NCBI GenBank assembly: GCA_025057645.1
Contig: JANXBJ010000005.1
Coordinates: 1 to 64,000 of the forward strand
Length of the DNA stretch: 64,000 nucleotides
Source: Anaerolineales bacterium
Lineage (GTDB): Bacteria; Chloroflexota; Anaerolineae; Anaerolineales; UBA4823
Direction of reading: 5' to 3'
The notes beneath the pieces were generated by a model. The model saw only the letters and a list, made by a program, of their open reading frames with translations. It searched no databases and was not told the origin of the DNA. The translations under genes were made by a program, and so were the position numbers. Positions 60,456 to 62,264 of the stretch are shown here, piece after piece. Every line of letters begins with the position of its first letter. The stretch's first letter is position 1.

Positions 60456-60769
60456 GCCACCACCAACTCGCTCCAGCTTCTGCGCGCCAGGCAGCGTAAC
60501 AAAGTCTTCGGGTTTGCCCCAGTTGCGGATGAGAACATGCCCTGCCAGTCGCAAGCCCTCCGTGGTGGCCAGTGCACCGAGCAGAGCTCTGCGAGGCAGA
60601 GAGCCATGCGGGGTAAGCCAGAAGCCTCCCGGACAAAGAGGACAGAGCTGCTCCCCTAAAAGATATCCACGATGCTCGAGCTGCGCAGGTGCAAACCGAG
60701 TGACCACAAAGCGGTCATTGCCCCGAGAATCACCAGGGCAAGGAAGGCGTAGATTTCCCAGAAAGACAT
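60456..60769 (-). pseudogene. Truncated DUF1295 (steroid 5-alpha-reductase-like) membrane gene
   Basis: From ATG 60769 the frame reads MSFWEIYAFLALVILGAM and SSIVDIF, then meets TAG where DUF1295 proteins have Trp (IFWG). The frame continues with GFWLTPHGSLPRRALLGALA and LRLAGHVLIRNWGKPEDF; a later frame change gives YAAWRAEAGASWWWR. The rest of the protein is missing, cut at the integrase remnant near 60455. The start lies one base after the stop of the redoxin gene, so it was once the last gene of that operon. Confidence 0.82.
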
Positions 60770-60770
60770 A

Positions 60771-61250
60771 TCAGCTTTCAGCCGTCTGATTTAGCTGGTC
60801 GAGCAAGGCAAGCAATTCTTCGTTGGCGGGAATGTCTGCCATGCTGTGACCATAATGCACATAACGGGCGATTCCCTGTTTGTCGACCATCACCTGTGCC
60901 GGCATCCTGCCCAGTTTGAACAAGTTCACCTCTTGCCCGTAGAGCTTCAACACACTCCCCTTGGGATCGGGAAGGCCGATGAAGGGCAAATGGTTCTTTT
61001 GCCAATACTCGGCGAAGGCTTTGGCGTTTTCGGGACCGAGGACGAGGATTTCTGCACCGCGTTGCTTGAATTGTTCGTAGTCCCGGCGCAACTGCGCCAT
61101 ATGCCGCTGGCAGAATGGTCAGACAAAGCCGCGGTTGAAGACCAAAAGGACATGGGCTTTGCCGCGAAAATCGGAGAGCTTGACCAGGTTGCCGTTGAAA
61201 TCGGCGAGGCTGAAATCGGGAGCCGGAGCATTGAGCGAGACTCTAGGCAT
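60771..61250 (-). CDS. AhpC/TSA-like redoxin, predicted selenoprotein (Sec44)
   Basis: Peroxiredoxin-like thioredoxin-fold protein of 159 residues if TGA 61119-61121 is read as selenocysteine. It starts at ATG 61250 after a strong AAGGAGGAAACC. Residues 1-43 (LNAPAPDFSLADFNGNLVKL, then a VLLVFNRGF strand) lead to codon 44, TGA, followed by PFCQRHMAQLRRDY. Cys-type relatives have CPFC here, so the motif becomes UPFC with resolving-type Cys47. The frame then stays open to a TGA at 60771 with normal features (LGRMPAQVMVDKQG, HYGHSMADIP). A hairpin follows the TGA. The alternative is a nonsense mutation, or initiation at Met51 giving a 109-residue fragment without the active site. Confidence 0.82.
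61085..61098 (-). promoter_or_regulatory. Candidate bacterial SECIS hairpin
   Basis: Minus-strand stem GGCGC / GCGCC closes the loop AGTT. The stem begins 21 bases and the apical loop 26 bases after the TGA at 61119-61121. A G occurs within the first two loop bases. These properties fit the known bSECIS consensus (loop 16-37 bases from TGA, small loop with early G, stem of at least four pairs). Confidence 0.6.
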
Positions 61251-61289
61251 GGTTTCCTCCTTGAGTGGAATCTGTTCTTCTACCTTACC

Positions 61290-62264
61290 TTATTGCGCAT
61301 CCAAACCTTGCGCCATCAAAAATTCTTCTACGGCTTGCAGAAACTCCTGCGGCTTTTCCTCGTGCGGCACATGTCCGGCATTCTCGATCACCGCCAAGCG
61401 GGCGTTGGGCAGCTCCTGCGCCAGGCGCACACTCTCGGCGGTCGGCACAATGCGGTCATCGTCGCCGGTGATCACCAGACAAGGCATCTGGAATTCAGAT
61501 AAGCGAGTAGGCAAATCCGATTGACGGCTGGCAAGGGTCAGTTCCCACAGGGCTTTATCCCAATTCTCGACCTTGAGCGGTTTTTGATAAAGCGCGATCG
61601 TCTCTGGGGGGATGCGGCTGGGATCGTGCCAAGCAGCGCGCAATAACTCCAGGCCTTGCGTTTGGATCTGCCGGACGAGCAGCGGGCCGAGACGGCGCAT
61701 CTGTGGTGTGGCCAAGAGCGGGCGCAACCAAGCGGGGGCTCCCCCGCCGGTGTAAACCGCCGCATCCACCAAGATCAGCGCCGCCACTCGCTCCGGGTGT
61801 GCTAAAGCCGTCTGCATGGCGATCGTACCGCCGGCCGAATTGCCGATCAGAATGGCTTTCTCGGCCCCGAAATGATCCATCAACCCGATCACCAGCTCCA
61901 CCTGTGCTTCTGGGCTGTAGGGGTTGCGTCCTTCCCAGCTTAACGGGCGTTCGGTCAGCCCGAAAGCCGGGCGGTCGAAGGCAATCACTCTGCCGTATTT
62001 CGCCAGACCCGGCATGACCGCATTCCACGAGTAGACGCTGGCGCCGAATCCGTGCAATAGGATGAACACCGGTTCGCCCTCGCCCTGTACTTTGACGTGC
62101 ACCTTCAGCCCGTTCACCGATATGAACAGGCTATCGGGGTCGGCCAGCGCCTCGGGCGGTTGGGTGCCTTCTAGGGGTGGGATCGGCACGAGAAAGGGAC
62201 CCACCAGGAAGACCACGAGCAGTAAGCCCAAAAAGAGGAGCAAAATGCGCGCAAGAACTTTCAT
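61290..62264 (-). CDS. Membrane-anchored alpha/beta hydrolase
   Basis: Protein of 324 residues with an N-terminal hydrophobic anchor (residues 5-27) and an extracytoplasmic alpha/beta-hydrolase domain. The oxyanion region LLHGFGASVYSW, nucleophile elbow GNSAGG, acid in TGDDDRIVP and His in NAGHVPHEE are all present. The substrate is unknown; membrane-anchored members often act on lipids or esters. The start ATG overlaps the stop of the TspO-like gene (ATGA). The redoxin gene starts 39 bases after its stop, with its own strong ribosome site. Confidence 0.9.
   Translation of the reverse strand: MKVLARILLLFLGLLLVVFLVGPFLVPIPPLEGTQPPEALADPDSLFISVNGLKVHVKVQGEGEPVFILLHGFGASVYSWNAVMPGLAKYGRVIAFDRPAFGLTERPLSWEGRNPYSPEAQVELVIGLMDHFGAEKAILIGNSAGGTIAMQTALAHPERVAALILVDAAVYTGGGAPAWLRPLLATPQMRRLGPLLVRQIQTQGLELLRAAWHDPSRIPPETIALYQKPLKVENWDKALWELTLASRQSDLPTRLSEFQMPCLVITGDDDRIVPTAESVRLAQELPNARLAVIENAGHVPHEEKPQEFLQAVEEFLMAQGLDAQ

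Follow-up and report, generated by a model that had tools for sequence, protein, structure and literature searches.

Prx-like thiol:disulfide oxidoreductases (PF00578, UxxC/UxxU) have been listed as a selenoprotein family since 2006 (PMC1794560; PMC13188914), and PMC13188914 also lists a Redoxin family protein (PF08534, UxxC, HEU0032618.1) as a selenoprotein. The bSECIS model given there comprises a loop of 3-9 nt whose first or second nucleotide is G, a stem of 4-16 bp, a distance of 16-37 nt from the UGA and an MFE of at most -7.5. Here we describe a redoxin gene in a stretch of 64,000 nt, hereafter the window, which shares with the Prx-like family the AhpC-TSA domain, a UxxC motif, Cys homologues and a post-UGA bSECIS. 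The comparison with that family (representative WP_010940744.1) is by description, and the available part of this description mentions neither a Chloroflexota clade nor a hydrolase partner. HEU0032618.1 has the Redoxin domain and UxxC in common with the window protein; compared by the accessible description, it may or may not belong to the same clade.

Three further families are close to the window protein. Its best NCBIfam match is the SelL-related redox protein NF040769 (SelL_rel_redox), which was matched by 21 of the 21 family members scanned; however, the score of 80.8 bits against a curated cut-off of 120 indicates that it is not a curated member. The CxxC of ResA sits exactly where U44-x-x-C47 lies in the window protein, but ResA has Cys at the position of the predicted Sec, and the window protein scores 54 bits against the ResA cut-off of 170. 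Sec-peroxiredoxins with the motif TxxU adopt the same fold and have an example in the same genome, but their Sec occupies the peroxidatic position, three residues further on. A literature search for the Chloroflexota clade found no mention of it. Proteins of this kind have thus been known before, whereas their widespread Chloroflexota branch seems to be undescribed.

Reading frame and annotation of the redoxin gene

The minus-strand frame starts at ATG 61250 and ends at the stop TGA 60773-60771 (Table 1). Re-reading of the frame revealed the TGA at 61121-61119 as its sole internal interruption, in agreement with the preliminary description. The predicted product has 159 aa including Sec, with the active-site motif FNRGFV-U-PFC. 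Standard ORF calling yields only Met51-159 (60771-61100, 109 aa), the truncated start that the preliminary description had anticipated. Because the Sec would lie at the active site, the gene appears cut by a stop and is easily mis-annotated. A short ORF beginning MSFWEIYAFLALVILGAM... (60657-60769, minus strand) overlaps the redoxin stop and terminates in TAG. A Pfam search with this 37-aa N-terminal remnant gave no match, so that the DUF1295 pseudogene previously reported nearby is unconfirmed. An Rfam scan of the window gave tRNA-Glu as the sole match.

Table 1. Features of the redoxin locus, in window coordinates.
Feature	Position	Strand	Remarks
Selenoredoxin gene (predicted)	60771..61250	-	159 codons + stop; AhpC-TSA/Redoxin fold, UPFC active site
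Codon 44, in-frame TGA, almost certainly decoded as selenocysteine	61119..61121	-	Kept as TGA at 52 orthologous loci; Cys codon (TGC/TGT) at 9 homologous ones
TGC, codon 47, putative resolving Cys	61110..61112	-	Aligns with the peroxidatic Cys of peroxiredoxins
Predicted bSECIS hairpin UGGCGC-AGUU-GCGCCG, loop 61090-61093	61084..61099	-	Covariation, synonymous freeze, energy, published rules
Shine-Dalgarno-like AAGGAGGAAACC region, immediately 5' of ATG 61250	61252..61263	-	Sequence
Gene for an alpha/beta hydrolase, next to the redoxin on its upstream side and probably in one operon with it	61290..62264	-	Pfam Abhydrolase_1

Codon 44, the selenocysteine machinery and the hairpin

Among the close orthologues from near relatives (41 related genomes), codon 44 is TGA in 25 of 27 and TGC in the other two, and all 26 further loci of a phylum-wide sample carry TGA at this codon. 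Thermomicrobium roseum, a named species of another class, adds one more locus, giving a total of 52 TGA-bearing orthologous loci with protein identity down to ~40%. Therefore, the TGA is neither a chance occurrence nor a sequencing error. The T. roseum gene lies on the plasmid NC_011961.1 (545266-545736; L049:3001-3471) and shows the TGA at codon 43 together with the same hairpin, and all that the public record annotates at this site is a hypothetical protein of 42 aa (TRD_RS15230). A search of this plasmid record for selA found none. Nine homologous loci have a Cys codon, TGC or TGT, at position 44. Cys forms are present in Anaerolineae and other Chloroflexota, in Chthonomonadales (Armatimonadota) and in one Bacillota MAG. 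A contig scan that returned Cys forms only, because its patterns were Cys-based, provided the Cys comparison set. On the gene tree, Sec and Cys must have been exchanged at least twice, and four times by parsimony, a count that is unsure because of several long branches. Downstream of codon 44, dN is 0.10-0.25 and synonymous sites are saturated, indicating strong purifying selection on the part after the TGA. An extra stop was found in two of the 52 loci, a TGA at codon 28 in L042 and a TAA at codon 104 in L077. Codon 51 is ATG in most loci, and CTG or CTC in T. roseum and L078-L082.

The genome containing the window (3.1 Mb, 63 contigs, 95.75% complete) encodes selA, selB and selD, found above cut-off at 552, 375 and 369 bits, respectively, together with a tRNA-Sec with the anticodon TCA (UCA). 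Because its named neighbours in the gene tree belong to Anaerolineales/Anaerolineae, we take the organism to be a member of Chloroflexota. In-frame TGA codons are also present at known Sec sites of the same genome: the UxxK site of selD itself, here UASK (L051, G000 contig C33:127500-129800), and the UHS site of the formate dehydrogenase alpha subunit FdhA (L098, contig C11). In addition, a second redoxin has TGA at the peroxidatic position, forming the TPIU motif of a TxxU Sec-peroxiredoxin (L050, G000 contig C8:8500-12500). Therefore, based on the full machinery and these sites, the organism very probably makes selenoproteins. The preliminary description had looked to the machinery and to codon 44 of homologues as checks on its proposal of selenocysteine recoding, and both agree with it, as do the hairpin and the protein conservation after the TGA; none of the contrary findings that it had named was encountered. 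selA was above cut-off in each of the 51 sampled genomes that carry TGA at this codon, as well as in 243 of the 301 genomes of the Chloroflexota sample, so that the co-occurrence of selA and TGA gives mild support only. In one Cys-bearing genome (G025) selA looked broken, but as this part of the contig contains unread bases we claim no loss.

In the window gene, the hairpin has a stem of 5-6 bp and the loop AGUU with G second, at a UGA-to-loop distance of 25 nt, and the isolated hairpin has an energy of -9.9 kcal/mol. These values agree with every published rule on loop, stem, G, distance and MFE, the last as computed for the isolated hairpin. Of the 52 Sec loci, 39 have the form UGGCGC-AGUU-GCGCCR with the same 25-nt distance. 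Stem pairing holds in 99.1% of cells (39 distinct sequences), with two-sided changes at three stem pairs (G-C to C-G, G-C to U-G and G-C to A-U; 0.1 in shuffles), and is lost when the stem partners are slid out of register. Codons 52-54 (GCG CAG TTG) do not vary among the 24 sequences from near relatives in which these residues are retained, where codon identities of 0.26, 0.52 and 0.22, respectively, would be expected; elsewhere, synonymous codons are near random. The folding energy of the sequence after the TGA is no lower than that of shuffles. The hairpin is not conserved in the nine Cys homologues, of which L086 retains part of the palindrome with the loop AGCU.

The remaining 13 Sec loci, which form one clade of family f12 (L041, L062-L070, L073, L074 and L076), carry the hairpin GCGCGC-AGUU(G/A)-GCGCGC at 16 nt from the UGA, three codons (9 nt) closer than in the window gene, with a CGUU loop in two of the 13. 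Both the 25-nt and the 16-nt forms fall inside the bSECIS model as reviewed in PMC13188914. In a more distant redoxin paralogue with the motif U-I/M-Q-C (L054, L055), the aligned codon is likewise TGA, and AGUU occurs in a hairpin context.

Alternative readings and the active site

The window protein matches PF00578 (AhpC-TSA) with a score of 80.2 bits (cut-off 26), and the Redoxin domain is also matched. The AlphaFold model, computed from an input without the T. roseum row, has a pLDDT of 93.9 and a pTM of 0.90; the parts on both sides of codon 44 build one domain, in which U44 begins the first active-site helix. Such a fold bears on the possibility that the TGA is a real stop between two products, namely a peptide of 43 aa and a protein from Met51 to residue 159 that lacks the active site. 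ATG51 does open a 109-aa ORF and T. roseum is publicly annotated with a 42-aa protein, but a single confident domain and the CTG or CTC found at codon 51 of some loci leave this reading with practically no probability; the hairpin accounts for the conserved codons around codon 51. Equally negligible is a pseudogene or sequencing error, in which a Cys codon 44 was mutated to, or misread as, TGA. The pseudogenes claimed nearby in the preliminary description and the further stops in two of the 52 relatives would fit it, whereas the phylum-wide conservation of the TGA refutes it: the identical codon occurs in loci of independent genomes, the window copy has no other lesion, selection persists after the TGA and the hairpin covaries. 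An in-frame TGA alone does not name the residue, and a code change or ordinary near-cognate read-through might insert another amino acid. However, TGA is the stop of 17 of the 45 open frames of at least 200 codons in the window, which puts a general reassignment out of play; it also terminates the redoxin gene itself. The tRNA-Sec and the Cys at position 44 of homologues likewise make insertion of another residue very improbable. Therefore, we conclude that the redoxin almost certainly carries selenocysteine at its active site. Sequence data could hardly make the case for recoding stronger, with the full-length translation itself being predicted. For the complete reading, a selenoprotein with UGA44 recoded via the AGUU hairpin into a predicted 159-aa Prx-like thiol:disulfide oxidoreductase, we estimate a probability of about 0.96.

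Which position of the active site this selenocysteine would occupy depends on the register. The AhpC-TSA domain would suit a genuine Sec-peroxiredoxin in which U44 is peroxidatic, as would the nearest solved structures by sequence as well as fold, which include peroxiredoxins; the best PDB matches of the model are peroxiredoxins, thiol-disulfide oxidoreductases among them. In the profile alignment, however, position 44 corresponds to the Thr of the peroxiredoxin TxxC and, in ResA, to the first Cys of CxxC, and position 47 (TGC) corresponds to the peroxidatic Cys of peroxiredoxins and to the second Cys of ResA. The T/SxxC(U) peroxiredoxin motif is absent from the window protein, which has Sec or Cys at 44 where peroxiredoxins have Thr. 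The TPIU paralogue, a true TxxU peroxiredoxin encoded by a separate gene of the same genome, agrees with this register, its Sec being at the position aligned with Cys47. A Sec-peroxiredoxin is thus unlikely, and U44 as peroxidatic Sec was rejected on the profile alignment. With U44 in the place of the leading CxxC cysteine, the protein is predicted to be a Prx-like thiol:disulfide oxidoreductase (UxxC). The preliminary description had taken codon 44 for the reactive peroxidatic Cys; it is the first Cys of the motif, as stated there, but the peroxidatic assignment is off by three residues and belongs to Cys47.

We propose that SelB with Sec-tRNA-Sec (UCA) would bind the AGUU-loop hairpin directly downstream of UGA44, resulting in the insertion of selenocysteine in place of termination. 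Sec44 might then act as the nucleophile attacking a disulfide or peroxide, with Cys47 resolving the adduct as a selenenylsulfide. The latter could be reduced by thioredoxin or a similar donor, donor and substrate being guesses.

The hydrolase neighbour and the Chloroflexota clade

In 20 other Sec loci, too, the redoxin is preceded by a relative of the upstream alpha/beta hydrolase, which is adjacent to it in 18 including T. roseum; none was found upstream of the redoxin in the nine Cys loci. The recurrence across Sec loci suggests that hydrolase and redoxin form an operon. New here are the Chloroflexota-wide clade, the frequent pairing with the alpha/beta hydrolase, the moved SECIS and the truncated T. 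roseum annotation. We tentatively suggest, with more doubt than confidence, that this easily missed clade and a dedicated hydrolase may constitute a two-gene unit for redox or detoxification, and that in one lineage the SECIS shifted by three codons with its AGUU loop intact.

If the SECIS has indeed moved with the same AGUU loop, SelB in these organisms would read the loop and tolerate spacings from 16 to 25 nt, making the shifted element a natural experiment on SelB requirements. The exchanges between Sec and Cys likewise provide matched enzymes for testing the contribution of Sec. Standard annotation truncates such genes, the T. roseum plasmid being an example, and members of the family occur throughout Chloroflexota; restoring the gene alters the predicted redox and selenium biology of this phylum.
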